DNA of 58,498 nucleotides from Okeania sp. SIO2B3 (lineage in GTDB: Bacteria; Cyanobacteriota; Cyanobacteriia; Cyanobacteriales; Microcoleaceae), in contig NZ_JAAHGH010000022.1 in the NCBI RefSeq assembly GCF_010672525.1, positions 1 through 58,498 on the forward strand, in the 5' to 3' direction. Position 1 is the first letter of the stretch; each line of letters begins with the position of its first letter. A program made the position numbers and the translations under genes. The notes under the pieces are model-generated. The model had not been told where the DNA came from. It did no database searches and was given only the letters and a program-made list of their open reading frames with translations. Positions 1,683 to 54,857 of this stretch are shown piece by piece.

Positions 1683-4600
1683 ATGCGTCGAAAATCCATT
1701 TTAGGGATTATTTTATTCTTCCTAACCCTAGCATTAACTATTTTACATGGGTCACTAATAGATAAATATATACAAAATAATCAATTATCAAATCAGATAA
1801 AAGAAGGTACAATACAGCAAATTTATAATTTAGACTTAGAAAATTCTTGCTTTGATATATCCCCAGAATTTCAGTTTATAGAACCCCAAAATTTCCATAA
1901 TACTCAAACTGTTATTCCTAGAAAAAATCAACCCAGACTGAAAAGTATATCAACTTCCCCACCTCAACCTACCTACGAAGCTATTGATATTTTGTGGATA
2001 TTACTTTGTTCTGGGTTAGTATTTATCATGCAGCCTGGATTTATGTGTTTAGAGTCAGGACTCACCAGGTCAAAAAATAGCATTAACGTTGCAATTAAAA
2101 ATTTAACTGATTTTGGTATTTCAGTTACCTGTTTTTGGAGTTTTGGATTTGCCTTTATGTTTGGGGCTTCATCTTCTGGAATAATTGGCCATAGTAAATT
2201 TTTCCTGGCAACCGATCTACAAGCTTTTGACGCGGCCTTCTTTTTATTTCAATTAATGTTCTGTGGTACAGCTACGACTATCGTTTCTGGTGCAGTAGCT
2301 GAACGGATGAAGTATTCCTCCTATCTATTTGTTGCCTCCCTAGTTTCAGGTTTAGTCTATCCCATATTTGGTCATTGGGTTTGGAATGGAGCTGATATTG
2401 GTATATTAACAGGTTGGCTTGGACATAATGGTTTTGTTGACTTTGCAGGTTCGAGTGTTGTCCATAGTATTGGTGGGTGGGTATCTCTGGCAACTTTATT
2501 AGTTATTGGTCCTCGAACAGGTAGATTTCCTCCTGGTCGTCCACCAGAAAAAATTCATGGTTCTAATTTACCCCTATCGGTTTTGGGGGCAATGCTGATT
2601 TGGTTTGGTTGGTTTGGGTTTAATGGTGGAAGTACCTTGGCATTAAACGAACAAGTAGCAGGAATTATTGTCAATACAATTCTTGCTAGTGCAGCAGGAA
2701 TGATTATTACTCTTGGTATTACTTGGTATATCAGAGGAATACCCAGTGTTGAGGGACTAATTAATGGTACTCTTTCTGGTTTAGTTGGCATTACAGCAGC
2801 TTGTCATGCTGTTACGGCTTTTTCTGCTATTTTGATTGGTATTATTTCTGCCATAGTCACTATGTTGGTAGAGCAAGCTTTAGAAAAAATTCGAGTTGAT
2901 GATGCTGTTGGAGCTATTCCAGTTCACCTTGGTGCAGGTATTTGGGGAACTTTAGCAGTAGCTTTTTTTGGGAAGGCAGAGGTTTTAGATACTGGTCTTA
3001 GTTTTAGCCAACAATTGACAGTTCAGCTATTAGGAATTTTGGCAGCTTTTTTATTAGGATTTTGTTTGGTATATCCAATTTTATTTATTACAAATAAACT
3101 TTATTTATTCCGAGTTTCAGAAGCGGATGAAAATATCGGTTTAAATGTTTCGGAGCATCAAGCGAAAACAGAAATATTAGACTTATTTAGAGTAATGGAT
3201 TCTCAAGCTCGTACACAAGATTTAAGTTTGCGAGTACCTGTAGAACCTTTTACAGAAGTAGGTCAAATTGCCGAGCGCTACAATCAGGTAATGAATGCTT
3301 TGGAGGAAGTTACTGCGAGAAATGATGCCATTATTAAAGTGGCGACAGATGCAATTATTACTTTTACTAAACCAGAGCTAGAAATTATTAGTATAAATCC
3401 TAGTGGTGAGAAAATTTTTGCCTACAAAAATCAAGATTTAGTAGGGAAGTCTATTTATCAAATATTTGACTTTACTATTAATCCATTAACTTTGGAAAAA
3501 ATGGATGCCGATTATTTATTAATGGCACCAGAAGAATTAATAGAAGAATCATTAAAACTATGGGTTAATCCCAACTTTATTGCCTATTCTACTCAGGAAT
3601 TTATAGATTATTGTTATGTATTTGATTTACAAGATATTCAACCGGAAAATTGGCAATTTCCCTTTCCTAGCTTTTTGCATTTACTAGAGGAGAATTTAGT
3701 AGATAGTCAAACAGAGTCGGAGACACAAAAAAAAATTAATAAGCAAATTAAATATATAGAATTAATGATATCTAAAATTGCTTATAGTGGAAACCTTTAC
3801 GAATTAGTTGGTATTCGTGCAGATGGTTCCTTATTTCCGATGGAAATTGCAGTTAGAGAAGCAAAATTTAATCAAAAAACTTTTTACACAGGAACTTTTA
3901 GAGATATTACAGATAGAAAGGAATCAGAAATAAAGCTCAAGGAAAATGAGCAAAGATTTCGGAGTTTATCGAGAGCTACCTTTGAAGGAATTATTATCCA
4001 TGAACAAGAAAAAATTATGGATACAAATATTGCTGCTGCCAATATGTTTGGATATGAATTATCAGAAATGGTGGGTATGAGTGGATGGGAATTAATTGTT
4101 CCAGAATACCACGACTTAATAGTTGAAAAAATGACTTCTGGCTCAGAAAAAGCCTATGAAGTAATTGGGGTTAGAAAAGATGGTTCAACTTTTCCTTTAG
4201 AAGTTGAGTCTAAGGTTTTTTTATACAGAGGTAATCAAAATGGAGTGGCAGCTTTAAGAGATATTACTGAGCGAAAATTAGCAGAGGCGGCATTACGAGA
4301 AAGTGAGGAAAGATTTAGAGCAGTAATGGAACAAGCAGCAGATGCTTTTATTATTCACGATTTAGAAGGAAAAATTATTGATGTAAATCAAAGTACCTGT
4401 AAAAGTTTGGGATATTCTCGTCAAGAACTATTGAATTTATATGTAGAAGATATTGAAGAAAATTTTGTCTATCAAGGGTTTCCTAAAAAATGGAAAAATT
4501 TGATTCTTGGCAGACCAATGACTATAGAGGGAATTCATCGTCGCAAAAATCGTACAACTTTTCCAGTAGAGATACGTTTAGGTTTATTAAAAGCAGGCAA

Positions 4601-5309
4601 TGGCAAATTAATCTTGGCTCTTTGTCGTGATATAACTGAACGTAAAAAAGCAGAAACAGCTTTGCTCCTAGAACGAGAAAAGTCAGAAAAATTGTTGTTA
4701 AATATTTTGCCGAAACCTATTGCTGATAGATTAAAAGAAGGTGATAGTACAATTGCAGAAGGATTTGCAGAAGTTACAGTTTTATTTGCAGATTTAGTAG
4801 GGTTTACTGAGTTAGCAGGTCGTGCAACTCCTCAAAGATTAGTTTATTGGTTAAATGAGATTTTTTCCAGGTTTGATTTACTAGCAGAAAAATATGGTTT
4901 GGAGAAAATTAAAACTATTGGAGATGCTTATATGGTTGTGGGTGGGTTGCCAGACCCAATGGAAAATCATGCTGAGGCGATCGCTCTAATGGCTATAGAT
5001 ATGTTGCAGGAAGTAGCCCATTTTGCTGATCAACAGGAACAAAACTTTAATATTCGTATTGGTATAAATACTGGCCCAGTCGTCGCTGGTGTTATTGGAC
5101 GTAAAAAATTTATATACGATTTATGGGGTGATACTGTGAATATTGCTAGTCGTATGGAGTCTCATGGTATACCAGGTGTTATCCAAGTGACAGAAGATAC
5201 CTATCAGATTTTACAGCACAAATTTTTATTTGCGGAGCGGGGATTGATTGATATTAAAGGCAAAGGTTACATGAAGGCTTATATTTTGCGGGAGAAAAAA
5301 AAGTTATAG
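1683..5309 (+). CDS. Ammonium transporter-PAS-adenylate cyclase fusion protein
   Basis: Probable membrane ammonium sensor that makes cAMP. Residues 5-27 form an extra N-terminal hydrophobic helix, followed by a ~70-residue loop. Residues ~97-475 are a complete Amt domain with both twin-histidine pore residues (His261 in VVHSIGG, His415 in VHLGAGIWG) and the GAVAERM motif. A conserved Amt tail (GLNVSEH) leads into a HAMP-like segment (~497-545) and then three PAS domains (~545-745 with a long insert, ~753-865, ~872-990). The C-terminus (~1003-1206) is a class III nucleotide cyclase with metal aspartates 1037 and 1081, purine-specifying Lys1077 and Asp1146 (adenylate rather than guanylate type), and transition-state Asn1153 and Arg1157. 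Every key residue I can identify is present, so both halves look functional. Amt proteins end in the cytoplasm, which places the PAS and cyclase parts there. It stands alone with no glnB beside it. Coupling of ammonium to cAMP is inferred. Confidence 0.93.
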   Translation: MRRKSILGIILFFLTLALTILHGSLIDKYIQNNQLSNQIKEGTIQQIYNLDLENSCFDISPEFQFIEPQNFHNTQTVIPRKNQPRLKSISTSPPQPTYEAIDILWILLCSGLVFIMQPGFMCLESGLTRSKNSINVAIKNLTDFGISVTCFWSFGFAFMFGASSSGIIGHSKFFLATDLQAFDAAFFLFQLMFCGTATTIVSGAVAERMKYSSYLFVASLVSGLVYPIFGHWVWNGADIGILTGWLGHNGFVDFAGSSVVHSIGGWVSLATLLVIGPRTGRFPPGRPPEKIHGSNLPLSVLGAMLIWFGWFGFNGGSTLALNEQVAGIIVNTILASAAGMIITLGITWYIRGIPSVEGLINGTLSGLVGITAACHAVTAFSAILIGIISAIVTMLVEQALEKIRVDDAVGAIPVHLGAGIWGTLAVAFFGKAEVLDTGLSFSQQLTVQLLGILAAFLLGFCLVYPILFITNKLYLFRVSEADENIGLNVSEHQAKTEILDLFRVMDSQARTQDLSLRVPVEPFTEVGQIAERYNQVMNALEEVTARNDAIIKVATDAIITFTKPELEIISINPSGEKIFAYKNQDLVGKSIYQIFDFTINPLTLEKMDADYLLMAPEELIEESLKLWVNPNFIAYSTQEFIDYCYVFDLQDIQPENWQFPFPSFLHLLEENLVDSQTESETQKKINKQIKYIELMISKIAYSGNLYELVGIRADGSLFPMEIAVREAKFNQKTFYTGTFRDITDRKESEIKLKENEQRFRSLSRATFEGIIIHEQEKIMDTNIAAANMFGYELSEMVGMSGWELIVPEYHDLIVEKMTSGSEKAYEVIGVRKDGSTFPLEVESKVFLYRGNQNGVAALRDITERKLAEAALRESEERFRAVMEQAADAFIIHDLEGKIIDVNQSTCKSLGYSRQELLNLYVEDIEENFVYQGFPKKWKNLILGRPMTIEGIHRRKNRTTFPVEIRLGLLKAGNGKLILALCRDITERKKAETALLLEREKSEKLLLNILPKPIADRLKEGDSTIAEGFAEVTVLFADLVGFTELAGRATPQRLVYWLNEIFSRFDLLAEKYGLEKIKTIGDAYMVVGGLPDPMENHAEAIALMAIDMLQEVAHFADQQEQNFNIRIGINTGPVVAGVIGRKKFIYDLWGDTVNIASRMESHGIPGVIQVTEDTYQILQHKFLFAERGLIDIKGKGYMKAYILREKKKL

Positions 5310-6273: not shown

Positions 6274-6954
6274 TTAAGACACAGTTAAAGGCATTCCATT
6301 ATCACTAGATTTGAGCTTCAACAAAAAAGGAACAGCTTTCTTTACCCAAGAATGCACAGGAGTACAGGACTTTGCTGCCTCCCCAAAACAAATGTCTAAC
6401 ATCTCAGTATGAATAACTCCAGGGTTCAAAGGAATAGCGGCCATTCCTGACGGTAACTCTTGGGCTAAAGTACGGGTCAAACCCTCAATTGCCCATTTTG
6501 AAGCACAATAAGGTCCCATTTGTGGAGAACTAGAACGTCCCCACCCAGAACTAAAATTAACAATTATTCCACTCTTTCTAGAAATCATAGCAGGGAGAAA
6601 ATGACGCATCACATTTGCCACACCCTTAATATTAATATCAATTAATTGTGAAAATTCCTCACTATCAACTTCCCAAACAGACCCTGGTTGATTAATTATA
6701 GCGGCATTATTTATTAATAAATCTGGCGGTGAATAATTACCTAATGTTTTAGCTGTCCACTCTCGCACAGATTTTTCATCTGCTACATTCACACAAGTAA
6801 ACTGATGTGGATTACCATATTTAGTAGTTAATGTTTCAACAGCAGATGCAGAACGAGCACAACCGATAATAGTATGGCCTAACCTAATAAATTCATCAGT
6901 CATAGCTTTACCTAAACCACGGCTAATCCCTGTAATAACAATGACCTTTTTCAT
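6274..6954 (-). CDS. Short-chain dehydrogenase/reductase (SDR family)
   Basis: A 226-residue classical SDR oxidoreductase, cytoplasmic, NAD(P)H-dependent. The Rossmann glycine motif TGISRGLG is at residues 8-15, the structural NNA motif at 82-84, and the catalytic Ser135/136, Tyr149 and Lys153 (PYCASK) are all present. The Arg directly after the first glycine-motif residues and Arg34 suggest NADP preference, which is an inference. The C-terminus is short for the family but covers the substrate loop. It converges on tRNA-Leu and has no operon partner, so the substrate cannot be deduced from context. Confidence 0.88.
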   Translation of the reverse strand: MKKVIVITGISRGLGKAMTDEFIRLGHTIIGCARSASAVETLTTKYGNPHQFTCVNVADEKSVREWTAKTLGNYSPPDLLINNAAIINQPGSVWEVDSEEFSQLIDINIKGVANVMRHFLPAMISRKSGIIVNFSSGWGRSSSPQMGPYCASKWAIEGLTRTLAQELPSGMAAIPLNPGVIHTEMLDICFGEAAKSCTPVHSWVKKAVPFLLKLKSSDNGMPLTVS

Positions 6955-7926: not shown

Positions 7927-8841
7927 ATGTTAGCCATTGACAAACAACAATTAGCAGCTTGGGTAGAAACAGCATTAACTCAAACAAAACTAGGTTATTT
8001 ACCTACTTATATTCCTTCACTTGCTGAAGCTAACCCTAATAATTTTGCCATAGTTTTACAAAGTATTGAAAATCAGATTATCTCATTAGGCAATGTAGAA
8101 ATAAATTTGTCTCTAATGAGTGCAATTAAACCTTTTTTGCTGTTGTATTTATTATGTGAATTTGGCAGTAATTTTGTCTTTAAAAGAGTAGGAATAGAAT
8201 CTTCAGAAAAGCCTTTCAATTCTTTAGAACAACTAGAAATTGATGGTGGATGGCCAAGAAATCCAATGATTAATAGTGGAGCGATCGCTTTATCATCGTT
8301 ACTACCAGGAAATACTTCTGAAGAGCGCTGTGAAAATTTTTGTTCTTGGCTAAACGAGTATGGAAAATGTCAATTATTTTTAGATACAAATATATTAGCT
8401 TCTGTTAGGTCTTTACCTAATCAGAATAATCAAGCTATAGCTGAAAAATTGGTAGAAGCGGGTTATATTCAAGACTCGAAAATTGCTCTAGATACTTATA
8501 ATCAAATCTGTTGTTTATCTGGCACAACCTTTGATTTAGCTAATCTAGGAATGTTGTTAGTAAAATATCCTAATTCTGAATGGAAAAAACACTGTTGTAC
8601 AGTTAAAGCACTAATGACTACTTGTGGTTTGTATGAAGCATCAAGTTGTTATGCTGTAAAAATAGGAATTCCAATTAAGTCTAGTGTAAGTGGAATTGTT
8701 TTGGGAGTAGTTCCTAGTACAGGAATAATTGTTTGTTATAGTCCTCCTCTAGATAAACAAGGAAATTCTGTAGTAGGTTTATTTCTCTTAGAACTAATTT
8801 CTCAAAATTTAAATTTAAGTGTCTTTTGCTCAAAAAAATAG
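7927..8841 (+). CDS. glsA: Glutaminase (glutamine to glutamate + ammonium)
   Basis: A 304-residue member of the serine-dependent beta-lactamase-like glutaminase family, hydrolysing L-glutamine to glutamate and ammonia in the cytoplasm. The catalytic Ser-x-x-Lys is Ser65-Ala-Ile-Lys68. Family signatures follow: PFNSLEQLE, RNPMINSGAI, the tyrosine-containing segment DTYNQICCLSG, MTTCGLYEAS, and SPPLDKQGNSVVG near the end. The length is normal. The region just upstream of the ATG is an R1 repeat end and I see no good Shine-Dalgarno sequence. It is transcribed alone. It lies 2.6 kb from the Amt-cyclase gene, with tRNA-Leu and the SDR gene between; a functional link to nitrogen sensing would be speculative. 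Confidence 0.92.
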   Translation: MLAIDKQQLAAWVETALTQTKLGYLPTYIPSLAEANPNNFAIVLQSIENQIISLGNVEINLSLMSAIKPFLLLYLLCEFGSNFVFKRVGIESSEKPFNSLEQLEIDGGWPRNPMINSGAIALSSLLPGNTSEERCENFCSWLNEYGKCQLFLDTNILASVRSLPNQNNQAIAEKLVEAGYIQDSKIALDTYNQICCLSGTTFDLANLGMLLVKYPNSEWKKHCCTVKALMTTCGLYEASSCYAVKIGIPIKSSVSGIVLGVVPSTGIIVCYSPPLDKQGNSVVGLFLLELISQNLNLSVFCSKK

Positions 8842-43091: not shown

Positions 43092-44300
43092 TTGTACAGA
43101 GCCATCAAAGTCAGAATCTACCCATCAGCCGAACAATCCCAAAAACTAACTCAAGTTATGGGGTGTGCTAGATGGTGGTGGAATTATGCCTTAAACCTGT
43201 GCAATGAAACTTATCAACAAACAGGCAAGAGATTAAGCCAAGTTGCTCTCAATCAAGTTTTGCCCAAACTAAAAAAATCTGAAGAAACTGCATGGTTGAA
43301 AGAATGTTATTCTCAAGTTTTGCAGTCAACGACCCTGAACCTAACCAAGGCATTTAAGAACTTTTTTGAAAAAAGGGCTAAGTACCCGAGATTCAAATCT
43401 TATCATGGGAAGCAATCCTGTCAATATCCTCAAAACACATCTGTAGTTGACAATGGAGTGAAAATCCCTCAAGTAGGGGTAATTAAAGCCTCAATTCATA
43501 GATTGTTTGACGGTCAATTAAAAACTGTAACTATTACTAAAACACCCACAGGAAAGTATTATGCATCATTGTTATTCGACACTGAACAAGAAACTCCTGA
43601 GATTGTGTTAACTGGTAAGGTTGTTGGTATAGATCTGGGGTTAAAAGATTTCTGTATTACCCATGATGGAGAAAAAACATCTAAATATGGTAATCCGAGG
43701 CACCTCAAGAAACATGAGCGAAACTTAGCAAGAAAACAAGCGAAATTAGCTCGTAAGAAAAAAGGAAGTATTTCAAGACAAAAAGCACGCCAGCTAGTGG
43801 CTAGGGTTTACGAACGTATTAGTAATGCCCGTCAAGACTTTCTACATAAATTATCAAGAAAAATCGTCAATGATAATCAGGTAGTGGTCGTTGAGAACTT
43901 GAATATCAAGGGTATGGTTTGTAATCATAAGCTAGCTAAAGTAATATCTGATGTCGGATGGGGGATGTTTGTCAATTTCCTTGAGTATAAACTACAACAA
44001 AAAGGTGGTTTGTTAATAGAAATTGACAGATGGTTTCCTAGTTCTAAAACTTGCTGTAATTGTCTCTACCAAATGTCAGAAATGCCATTAGAGATGAGAG
44101 AGTGGACTTGTCCGAATTGTGGCACACACCATGATAGGGATGAAAATGCCAGCAAGAATATCAGAATAGAAGGCATCAGACAATTATCAGTCTTGGGAAC
44201 CAGGACTGCTGCTGAAGGAGGGGAAGTAAGACCAAAAGCTGGGCGTAAGTCCGTCTTGAGGCACTCCCCTGTGAGTTCAGAAGCCCCAACTTTAGCGTAG
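43092..44300 (+). CDS. tnpB: TnpB-family RNA-guided nuclease of an IS200/IS605-type element
   Basis: A 402-residue intact TnpB. It starts at TTG 43092 (YRAIKVRIYPSAEQ, the expected N-terminus). The helical N-terminal part contains ARWWWNYAL; the RuvC-type catalytic residues are Asp181 (VGIDLG), Glu268 (VVVENLN) and the C-terminal aspartate of HDRDENA (348-350). The zinc finger is CCNCLY...CPNCG. Both catalytic and zinc residues are kept, so the nuclease looks competent. The protein ends within the right-end hairpin of the element, typical for this group, whose 3' region usually encodes the guide RNA. There is no tnpA beside it, so mobility would depend on a transposase elsewhere. It sits 41 bp before a transporter gene. 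Confidence 0.95.
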   Translation: MYRAIKVRIYPSAEQSQKLTQVMGCARWWWNYALNLCNETYQQTGKRLSQVALNQVLPKLKKSEETAWLKECYSQVLQSTTLNLTKAFKNFFEKRAKYPRFKSYHGKQSCQYPQNTSVVDNGVKIPQVGVIKASIHRLFDGQLKTVTITKTPTGKYYASLLFDTEQETPEIVLTGKVVGIDLGLKDFCITHDGEKTSKYGNPRHLKKHERNLARKQAKLARKKKGSISRQKARQLVARVYERISNARQDFLHKLSRKIVNDNQVVVVENLNIKGMVCNHKLAKVISDVGWGMFVNFLEYKLQQKGGLLIEIDRWFPSSKTCCNCLYQMSEMPLEMREWTCPNCGTHHDRDENASKNIRIEGIRQLSVLGTRTAAEGGEVRPKAGRKSVLRHSPVSSEAPTLA

Positions 44301-53498: not shown

Positions 53499-54314
53499 CT
53501 TTTTATTGGTTTATTGGTTTATTGGTTTATTGGTGAAAAAGTAGTAAGTATGCTATCATATTATTAGTTTAAATAAAAATTATGAAAGCTAGATTTAAGT
53601 ATCGTATTTATCCAGCACCGGGACAAAAAGCCAGATTAGCAAAGCTGTTTGGTTGTGTTCGTGTTGTGTGGAATGATAGTCTAGCTTGCTGTCAGGAAAA
53701 GTACAGATTAGGAGAAAAGAAACCCACTAATTCTGAGCTACAAAAACTCTTTATTACTCAAGCAAAAAAGACTGAAGACAAAGAATGGTTATCAGAGGTT
53801 TCAGTTGTACCATTACAGCAATCACTGAATGATTTAAACCAAGCTTATCAAAACTTTTTCAGTTCGACAAAAGGCCAGAGAAAAGGCCAAGCCATAAAAC
53901 CTCCCAAATTTAAAACCAGGAAATCAAAACAGACTGCCAGGTTTACCTTGAGAGGGTTTAAAGTACACCAAGATAAAGTTTATTTAGCTAAGATTGGAAA
54001 GCTTAAAGTAGCCTGCTATGCGAAAACTACCCAGTGAGCCTAGCTCAGTAACAGTAATCAAAGATTCAGCTAATAGATACTTTCTTAGTTTTGTAGTAGA
54101 AATACAACCAGAAACTTTACCAAAAACGGATAATTCAGTAGGTATAGATTTAGGAATTAAAACTTTTGCTACATTAAGTAATGGTCAAAAAATTGATGCA
54201 CCAAAACCACTAAAGAAACGAATTAAGAAATATCGAAAGTTAAGCAAATCATTATCTAAAAAAACTAAAGGATCTAAAATATATGAAAAAGCTAGGTTGA
54301 GGGTAGCTAAATTT

Positions 54315-54335
54315 TCCTACGGAATGCTGCGCAAA
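54315..54335 (-). repeat. 21-bp SDR inside tnpB, inverted
   Basis: The reverse complement of the SDR unit, inserted in frame and translated as SYGMLRK between VAKF and HAKLKDTRTDF. Other TnpB proteins read VAKLHAK here without the seven residues. Confidence 0.85.
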
Positions 54336-54428
54336 CATGCCAAACTGAAAGATACAAGAACTGATTTTCTGCATAAATTATCTACTAAAATAATTAGTGA
54401 AAACCAAACAATTGTTTTAGAATATTTG

Positions 54429-54449
54429 TTTGCGAAGCATTCCGAAGGA
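54429..54449 (+). repeat. 21-bp SDR inside tnpB, direct
   Basis: Direct SDR unit, translated as FAKHSEG between VLEYL and NVSGMVKNRKL. Family members read VLEDLNVSGM without them. Confidence 0.85.
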
Positions 54450-54762
54450 AACGTTTCTGGTATGGTGAAAAACCGTAAATTATCCAGAGCAATTTCTGAT
54501 TTAGGTTGGAGAACTTTCAGAACATTCCTAGAAGGAAAAGCAGAAAAATATGGTCGTAATTTTAGAGTAATTAGTCGTTGGGAACCAACGTCCCAAATAT
54601 GCTCATGCTGTGGCTTTAAAGGTGGTAAGTTAGACCTTCAGGTGCGAGAATGGGAGTGTCTCAACTGCGGTACAAGACACGATAGAGATGAGAATGCAGC
54701 AATAAATATATTAGTCGCGGGCGGGCAGTCCGAGACATTAAACGGACGTGGAGGCAAGCGTA

Positions 54763-54806
54763 ACCCACCCCCATCCCCTCCCGGGAGGGGAGCAAGAGGG
54801 GTGGGT
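54763..54806. repeat. 44-bp GC-rich hairpin module in the tnpB tail
   Basis: ACCCACCCCC at the left and GGGGTGGGT at the right with CCCCTCCCGGGAGGGG inside: a self-complementary module also found at ~9225, 11800, 12345, 26585, 47960, 52185 and 53375, in variants. Confidence 0.7.
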
Positions 54807-54857
54807 GCAGCAGCCTGTGAAACGTTAACCCGCCGAAGAGCTGCAGCTCGGTAGGAA

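Follow-up and report, generated by a model that had tools for sequence, protein, structure and literature searches.

Introduction

Can a single bacterial polypeptide perceive ammonium outside the cell and report it as cyclic AMP (cAMP) within? The question is raised by a gene near the start of contig NZ_JAAHGH010000022.1 of the cyanobacterium Okeania sp. SIO2B3 (assembly GCF_010672525.1), the 58,498 nucleotides of which were analyzed as a whole and are referred to here as the window. A preliminary description of the open reading frame (ORF) at 1683-5309 had read it as a fusion of an ammonium channel (Amt) to an adenylate cyclase and had suggested that it is a one-protein ammonium-to-cAMP sensor. 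In the open-licence PMC literature, no description of an Amt-adenylate cyclase was found among the matches listed. Our analysis supports the sensor reading, with gating of the cyclase by ammonium presumed, and we consider it fairly probable that the protein acts in the membrane as a receptor for ammonium and controls cAMP synthesis. This is the best reading because the fusion is conserved, its Amt domain groups with signaling Amts, its structural matches include the receptors Sd-Amt1 and Ks-Amt5, and because, in experiments on Ks-Amt5, phosphorylation of its kinase was found to depend on ammonium (PMC5764959).

Results

The ORF lies on the forward strand, as do all features of the protein given below, starts with ATG and encodes 1208 residues without an internal stop; it was confirmed as a single intact protein running from Amt to cyclase. 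From the N to the C terminus it carries a hydrophobic helix, a complete Amt domain, a HAMP-like linker, three PAS domains, a helical element and a class III cyclase. The Amt domain (residues 104-495; 1992-3167) was identified with Pfam Ammonium_transp (E = 1.3e-118), passing the cutoff of PF00909 (396.7 bits versus 23.2) and the curated cutoff of TIGR00836 in NCBIfam (409.4 bits versus 343.3), and has 11 predicted transmembrane helices; its best matches in the Protein Data Bank (PDB) are Sd-Amt1 and Ks-Amt5. The catalytic domain of the putative class III adenylate cyclase (residues 1026-1203; 4758-5291) was placed by Pfam Guanylate_cyc (PF00211, E = 5.2e-64) and by alignment. PAS families PF13426 and PF00989 also scored over their cutoffs (137.3 and 76.6 bits) in three to four stretches, and the domain search proposed with the preliminary description has thus returned Amt, PAS and class III cyclase alike. 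An AlphaFold2 single-chain model of residues 97-1208 (mean predicted local distance difference test score, pLDDT, 76.6; predicted template-modeling score 0.46) contains 11 Amt helices by our own count, a helix-loop-helix at about residues 498-553, three PAS folds, in agreement with the three PAS segments reported earlier, helices at about residues 985-1018 and a cyclase fold. PAS1 (residues 546-745; 3318-3917; Pfam, alignment and model) and PAS2 (about residues 764-862; 3972-4268; Pfam and model) have limits set by eye, and PAS3 (residues 876-986; 4308-4640) follows Pfam. The long insert noticed previously in PAS1 is present at about residues 610-679 (3510-3719), where the pLDDT falls below 50, and the helices ahead of the cyclase belong to an element (residues 985-1022; 4635-4748) that we take to be of the cyclase-transducing type.

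The additional N-terminal helix of the preliminary description is likewise there. A hydrophobic 19-mer at residues 5-23 (1695-1751; hydropathy peak 2.21) precedes the Amt fold and is a probable signal anchor or signal peptide. It is similar across the copies of the family, with the exception of the second copy in genome G001, and was not seen at locus L015, whose frame reaches the end of the stretch compared. If the helix is kept, the N terminus of the protein would lie inside the cell and that of the Amt domain outside, fitting Amt topology, and the PAS and cyclase domains would be placed in the cytoplasm. The intervening stretch (residues 24-100; 1752-1982), predicted to be periplasmic, is weakly constrained, as judged by the ratio of nonsynonymous to synonymous substitutions (dN/dS).

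Conservation of the fusion, which the preliminary description had proposed to check among homologues, proved to be clear. Amt through cyclase was found on one frame in 10 of the 59 genomes searched, including that of the window (G000 to G004, G010, G011, G016, G025 and G042), and nine of the fusions were aligned. The fusion is present in 9 of 61 genomes of the window's family, including all five of the window's genus, in one genome of another family and in 3 of 386 genomes sampled from the phylum; by these counts, the combination of Amt, PAS and adenylate cyclase is steady in its own lineage but seldom met in the phylum as a whole. The G042 frame extends to the end of the stretch compared, beyond which its start may lie, and partial, broken or contig-end copies occur in G005, G021, G031 and G034. 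G001 carries a tandem pair (locus L137, 2589-10558), the first copy of which is broken after PAS3, so that its cyclase stands on an ORF apart, while the second is without the N-terminal extension. In genus g3, 9 of 10 genomes matched by the Amt-linker part, and a kinase stands in place of the cyclase in the six of these nine whose outputs were looked at, as it does in G007. A total of 31 of the 386 phylum genomes matched at 1e-100, one of them (G014) by its cyclase only. When sorted by the main match per genome, with six SpoIIE or kinase rows assigned by phmmer alone, the other 30 comprise three Amt-PAS-cyclases, six proteins with SpoIIE-type phosphatase domains, ten with kinase or kinase-receiver outputs, three kinase-receiver-cyclases and eight without a Pfam-detectable output domain. 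Outside the phylum, a cyclase was found on the Amt ORF in none of 80 loci among the matches listed, in a scan that used a generic pattern, returned no cyanobacteria and cannot show how far Amt-cyclase reaches.

In five pairs of fusion genes, dN/dS was 0.10-0.27 for the Amt domain, 0.09-0.42 for the linker, 0.25-0.27 for PAS2-3 and 0.14-0.26 for the cyclase; it was 0.54-1.02 for residues 1-100, 0.37-0.71 for the PAS1 insert (residues 610-690) and 0.26-1.25 for the PAS1 core, the top value of which stems from few synonymous changes. We conclude that the gene is under purifying selection, with a loose N terminus and PAS1 insert.

Phylogenetic trees place both ends of the protein. Among 73 Amt domains placed in one tree, those of the 11 Amt-cyclases, from 10 genomes with G001 represented twice, formed one clade (support 98/93, starred), in which G042 is sister to the window's family. 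The cyclase tree, built from 31 domains without three long-branched kinase-receiver-cyclase rows, likewise grouped the 11 fused cyclases, at a support (93/96) just short of the star and in 92% of bootstrap trees. A 59-row branch of the Amt tree (99/83) unites the window Amt with Amts bearing kinase, kinase-receiver, SpoIIE, GGDEF and kinase-receiver-cyclase outputs in cyanobacteria, Verrucomicrobia, Planctomycetes, Gammaproteobacteria and Pelagibacteraceae, with output-less proteins interspersed; the rows of this tree included 13 chosen transporters and 7 of the 11 Pelagibacteraceae loci, and did not include Ks-Amt5 and Sd-Amt1. The Amt-kinase-receiver-cyclases L145 to L147 represent a second, independent combination of Amt with cyclase. 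They form a distinct clade (99/98), set apart by a starred branch (97/88), and their cyclases, which we presume to be of the CyaC-like subclass, read DKDTNR at the six catalytic positions. Cyclases were thus captured by this type of receptor at least twice.

The result that is new, and most useful, is the recurrence of one linker behind signaling Amts together with a one-residue difference in the tail that it contains. The linker, about 70 residues directly behind the Amt domain (residues 477-545; 3111-3317), was recognized as a conserved HAMP-like stretch and putative transmitter from sequence identity, a Pfam match below the cutoff and the helix-loop-helix of the model, and it recurs across output types. 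These comparisons, like those of the motif and residues below, were made on loci from the range L001 to L156, in whole or in selection. Measured against the window protein, the linkers of the Amt-cyclases had a median identity of 88% (84% for the Amt domain), those of the kinases 65% (59%), of the kinase-receiver-cyclases 70% (56%) and of the output-less proteins 67% (56%). Five of the 13 plain transporters could be scored over the linker stretch, at 21% identity. The linker is kept also in relatives without PAS behind the Amt domain. Calling it "HAMP-like" was justified as a likeness but not as a Pfam HAMP domain, since the window linker matched about half of PF00672 at E = 0.072 and 13.9 bits, below the cutoff of 25; this cutoff was reached by 6 of 10 output-less homologues.

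The tail motif in this region reads G-L-N, its Asn488 (codon at 3144-3146, identified by motif comparison) standing where plain Amts have Asp. G-L-N was found in 71 of 74 distinct extended Amts and G-L-D in all 57 scorable short plain Amt ORFs; the motif was unscorable in 15 of the 72 short ORFs, among them the contig-cut fusion piece L027, and was read by eye in two extended proteins (N in L134, D in L003). The tails of Ks-Amt5 and Sd-Amt1 also read N. Because the rows are interrelated, the motif is a group mark and not 71 independent events. On the basis of the shared linker and the Asp-to-Asn change, we propose that a transport-regulating tail became the head of a transmitter.

The catalytic residues of the cyclase are those reported in the preliminary description, and D1037, K1077, D1081, D1146, N1153 and R1157 are invariant in all nine aligned fusions. 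DKDDNR occupies these six positions in 11 of 11 fused rows and in each of 20 other cyanobacterial cyclases compared. In this enzyme class, the two metal-binding Asp residues are accompanied by a Lys/Asp pair that recognizes adenine and an Asn/Arg pair that stabilizes the transition state, and the window cyclase should make cAMP from ATP. In the pore, the twin His261 and His415 (codons at 2463-2465 and 2925-2927, placed by alignment), the Phe gate (F193, F313) and the selectivity filter (W234, S317) are present in all 11 Amt-cyclase rows. The closest structural matches of the model were three entries of Sd-Amt1, one titled OFF (45% identity), one titled ON (46%) and 8qpf (44%). Ks-Amt5 came fourth (40%), under the title "Sensor Amt Protein," ahead of plain Amts and Mep2.

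The genome that carries the fusion is assembled into 249 contigs totaling 10.0 Mb; the GC content of the window is 35.4%. Two PsaA/PsaB matches, which among 14 control genomes only Synechococcus elongatus gave as well, show the genome to be cyanobacterial, and two strong NifH-family matches are in keeping with NifH plus ChlL. The genome also gave two P-II matches, 29 cyclase-domain matches, the window's included, and 13 cyclic nucleotide monophosphate (cNMP)-binding matches over the cutoff; any cAMP made by the window protein would therefore join a crowded cAMP network. For Synechocystis, a role of cAMP as a high-CO2 signal has been described (PMC10117731).

On one side of the fusion gene, relatives have a peptidoglycan-binding-domain gene followed, where the stretch reaches, by an M32 carboxypeptidase; the window, in which the gene lies near the contig start, covers no sequence for these upstream neighbors. 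On the other side, neighborhood comparison identified a short-chain dehydrogenase (6274-6954, reverse strand), a glutaminase, which releases ammonium (7927-8841, forward strand), and, mostly, a receiver protein in the relatives. The glutaminase occurs in seven of eight stretches compared (the window, L137 to L141 and L143), and the eighth, L142, reaches about 1 kb beyond the fusion gene. The glutaminase was rejected as a functional partner and counted as synteny only, because the genomes compared are closely related and, in the window, a gene on the opposite strand intervenes. Farther along, sequences at 43092-44300 and 53582-54854, the latter spread over two overlapping frames, look by eye like TnpB-like transposon ORFs.

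Several other Amt proteins were met. In Pelagibacteraceae of SAR11 type (L061-L068, L070, L071 and L110), Amt is fused to a SpoIIE-type phosphatase domain, with two such genes in a row at L110; these calls were mostly made by phmmer, with Pfam support for L063 and the second L110 gene. Amt domains followed by chemoreceptor tails of the methyl-accepting chemotaxis protein (MCP) type are encoded at L069 (5857-8169, Vibrio sinus), L081 (5872-8142, Orenia) and L099 (967-3216, Halonatronum), the first two recognized by Pfam and the last by the likeness of its tail, and are possible ammonium chemotaxis receptors; L081 and L099 keep G-L-D and therefore look like a separate origin. In several cyanobacterial families, at L149, L150 and L152-L155, though not at L151, an output-less Amt-HAMP-like gene adjoins a gene for a TrkA-type ion channel (Pfam for L150 and L153, likeness for the others), and perhaps receptor and channel act together. 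In the genome of the window, L003 (769-2640) encodes a 624-residue Amt with a tail of more than 200 residues lacking a Pfam match. Two Amt fragments 2 kb apart (L004 and L005; contig C124 of G000, about 70.8-73.6 kb), the second with internal stops, are perhaps the remains of a broken Amt gene, and a 544-residue Amt-PAS protein that ends inside its PAS domain (L019, 1444-3075, in G018) may be a receptor that lost its output.

Discussion

How might ammonium reach the cyclase? That ammonium binds, how the signal is coupled to the cyclase and with which sign, which oligomers form and that cAMP is the product are all inferred here. External ammonium would enter or bind an Amt trimer, and the C-terminal tail of the Amt domain, through its G-L-N-x-x-E-H stretch, would read out the resulting change and pass it into the HAMP-like two-helix transmitter at residues 477-545. 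From there the change would travel via the three PAS domains, a possible second input, and the helical element to the class III cyclase, which would act as a head-to-tail homodimer. Because the Amt domain would be trimeric but the cyclase dimeric, we propose that ammonium could let two of the three chains, or chains from two trimers, pair. Downstream, the cAMP produced would act on the cNMP-binding proteins of the same genome.

A more general proposal, which we put forward tentatively as plausible though short of probable, is that bacteria possess an ammonium-receptor chassis in which an Amt trimer, its tail converted from Asp to Asn, leads into a HAMP-like transmitter and can be joined to nearly any output, with the window protein a direct converter of ammonium to cAMP between a threefold receptor and a twofold enzyme. 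The outputs seen behind such Amts range from kinases and kinase-receivers through SpoIIE phosphatases and c-di-GMP enzymes to class III adenylate cyclases, the last of these twice independently, and perhaps include a chemoreceptor.

A number of observations weigh against an ammonium receptor with cAMP output. Although the preliminary description was correct that both pore histidines are kept, they are present in 13 of 13 plain transporters and do not mark sensing, and the attempt to infer sensing from the pore residues was rejected for this reason. The ammonium site of Ks-Amt5, which the window protein matches at five of seven positions, with one Ser and one Phe in place of Thr, was also rejected as a sign of sensing, because most plain transporters share its residues (Q in 10 of 13, E in 12, N in 11, D in 10 and T in 12). 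A long loop 5 fared no better, since the distance between its flanking alignment columns is 20 residues in 12 of 13 transporters too. Of the pore-blocking residues F27, Y30 and F34 of Ks-Amt5, only the first is kept here (F120, L123 and L127), and because of this the pore may still conduct; an equivalent of F120 is present in 12 of 13 transporters as well, and the complete trio was found in none of 60 signaling rows and thus is not a defining trait of the group. The linker is less similar to that of the window than is the Amt domain in proteins with SpoIIE (45 versus 51%), GGDEF (51 versus 52%) and MCP (41 versus 49%) outputs, and three extended Amts (L003, L081 and L099) read D instead of N. 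The Amt tree is unrooted, its midpoint serving for drawing only; the Vibrio sinus Amt-MCP protein (L069) falls among the transporters in it, and the long-branched plain Amt L104 adjoins the signaling rows. Finally, an NtcA-type GTAN8TAC sequence was not found within up to 450 bp upstream of eight genes, and we therefore see no sign of nitrogen control there.

The alternative that survives best is a version of the favored reading, with a probability that overlaps with it, in which the protein is a transceptor similar to Mep2 but on one chain, conducting ammonium and signaling the passage of ammonium through cAMP. The intact Phe gate, selectivity filter and His pair, and the absence of two of the three Ks-Amt5 blocking residues, are as this version would have it; the top structural match is titled a receptor, however, and Mep2 does not activate protein kinase A (PKA) by way of increased cAMP (PMC5890159). 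We find this version possible but rather doubtful. We judge it unlikely that the protein is instead a membrane-anchored PAS cyclase, its PAS domains sensing redox, light products or a metabolite while the Amt domain is mainly an anchor or an ordinary transporter and ammonium has little if any control over the cyclase. Three PAS domains do separate Amt from cyclase, the match of the window protein to many cyclases of relatives is confined to the PAS3-cyclase part, and the pore residues are as in transporters. But the Amt domain groups with signaling Amts and not with transporters, the linker is kept across outputs even where no PAS follows, and the same genome has a separate plain Amt (L001); a LOV-type PAS was also considered and rejected, as no LOV motif was found. 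Less likely still is the reverse direction of signaling, in which the cytoplasmic part, through ATP or the state of the PAS domains, gates ammonium uptake via the tail and cAMP is secondary. The intact pore would suit such a protein, as would the importance for transport of the C-terminal tail of plain Amts and of a neighbor's loop 5 (PMC5764959); against it stand the invariance of the six catalytic residues, the relatives with kinase, phosphatase and GGDEF outputs, and the finding that Ks-Amt5 binds ammonium without translocating it (PMC5764959). An assembly or annotation artifact, conceivable in that the assembly is a draft and the start of the window is also that of its contig, has practically no chance of being correct, as it is refuted by homologues that carry the same fusion in 10 genomes and form one clade in both trees, which also rules out the one-off join that the preliminary description had named as a refutation.

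Should the ammonium receptor with cAMP output prove true, an Amt protein would be a cAMP-generating receptor on a single polypeptide, and transceptor signaling by Amt/Mep proteins would become testable by the addition of ammonium and a cAMP readout, with no need of an unidentified partner. It would also raise the structural question of how a receptor built as a trimer can drive a cyclase built as a dimer, and cyanobacteria would gain an input from external ammonium beside PII and NtcA. The shared linker and G-L-N would provide a simple first test for telling signaling Amts from transporters in genomes.

Among known systems, yeast Mep2 is similar in that it belongs to the Amt/Mep proteins and relays an ammonium signal to the PKA pathway, but it does so on separate chains, by a mechanism described as not understood and without a rise in cAMP (PMC5890159). 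At the other end of the protein, the catalytic core is 48-49% identical to that of Rv1625c (PDB 4p2f) and of a bacterial cyclase domain (5o5k, 5o5l), PDB entries without an Amt domain. Cyanobacterial PAS-cyclases have the same DKDDNR signature in the 20 compared, but match the PAS-cyclase part only. L145, L146 and L147, of the cyanobacterial family f31, share Amt, linker and class III cyclase on one chain, but differ in the kinase and receiver that lie in between, in reading DKDTNR and in belonging to a separate Amt clade.

The nearest parallels are Amt receptors with other outputs. Ks-Amt5 of Kuenenia stuttgartiensis (PDB 6eu6) is likewise an Amt sensor fused to a signaling output, with a G-L-N tail, and its Q24, E31, N47, D50 and T109 are identical in the window protein, T112 being replaced by Ser. 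It differs in two of three pore-blocking residues and T51, which are not matched here, and in its histidine kinase output, to which no HAMP-type transducer leads according to its authors (PMC5764959); they propose a contact of the tail with loop 5 as the route to the kinase (PMC5764959). Sd-Amt1 of Shewanella denitrificans (PDB 8qj3, 8qj4 and 8qpf), of which the OFF- and ON-state entries are titled "Receptor Sd-Amt1," comes closest, with an Amt domain 44-46% identical, a sequence match that continues through the linker to its residue 447-448, a G-L-N tail and an output on the same chain. Because the alignment of its chain with L060 continues across the GGDEF domain of the latter, this output is GGDEF-like, hence its product would be c-di-GMP and not cAMP, and no PAS intervenes in the alignment with L060. 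The window protein thus joins the known Amt-type ammonium receptors as one whose output is likely cAMP.

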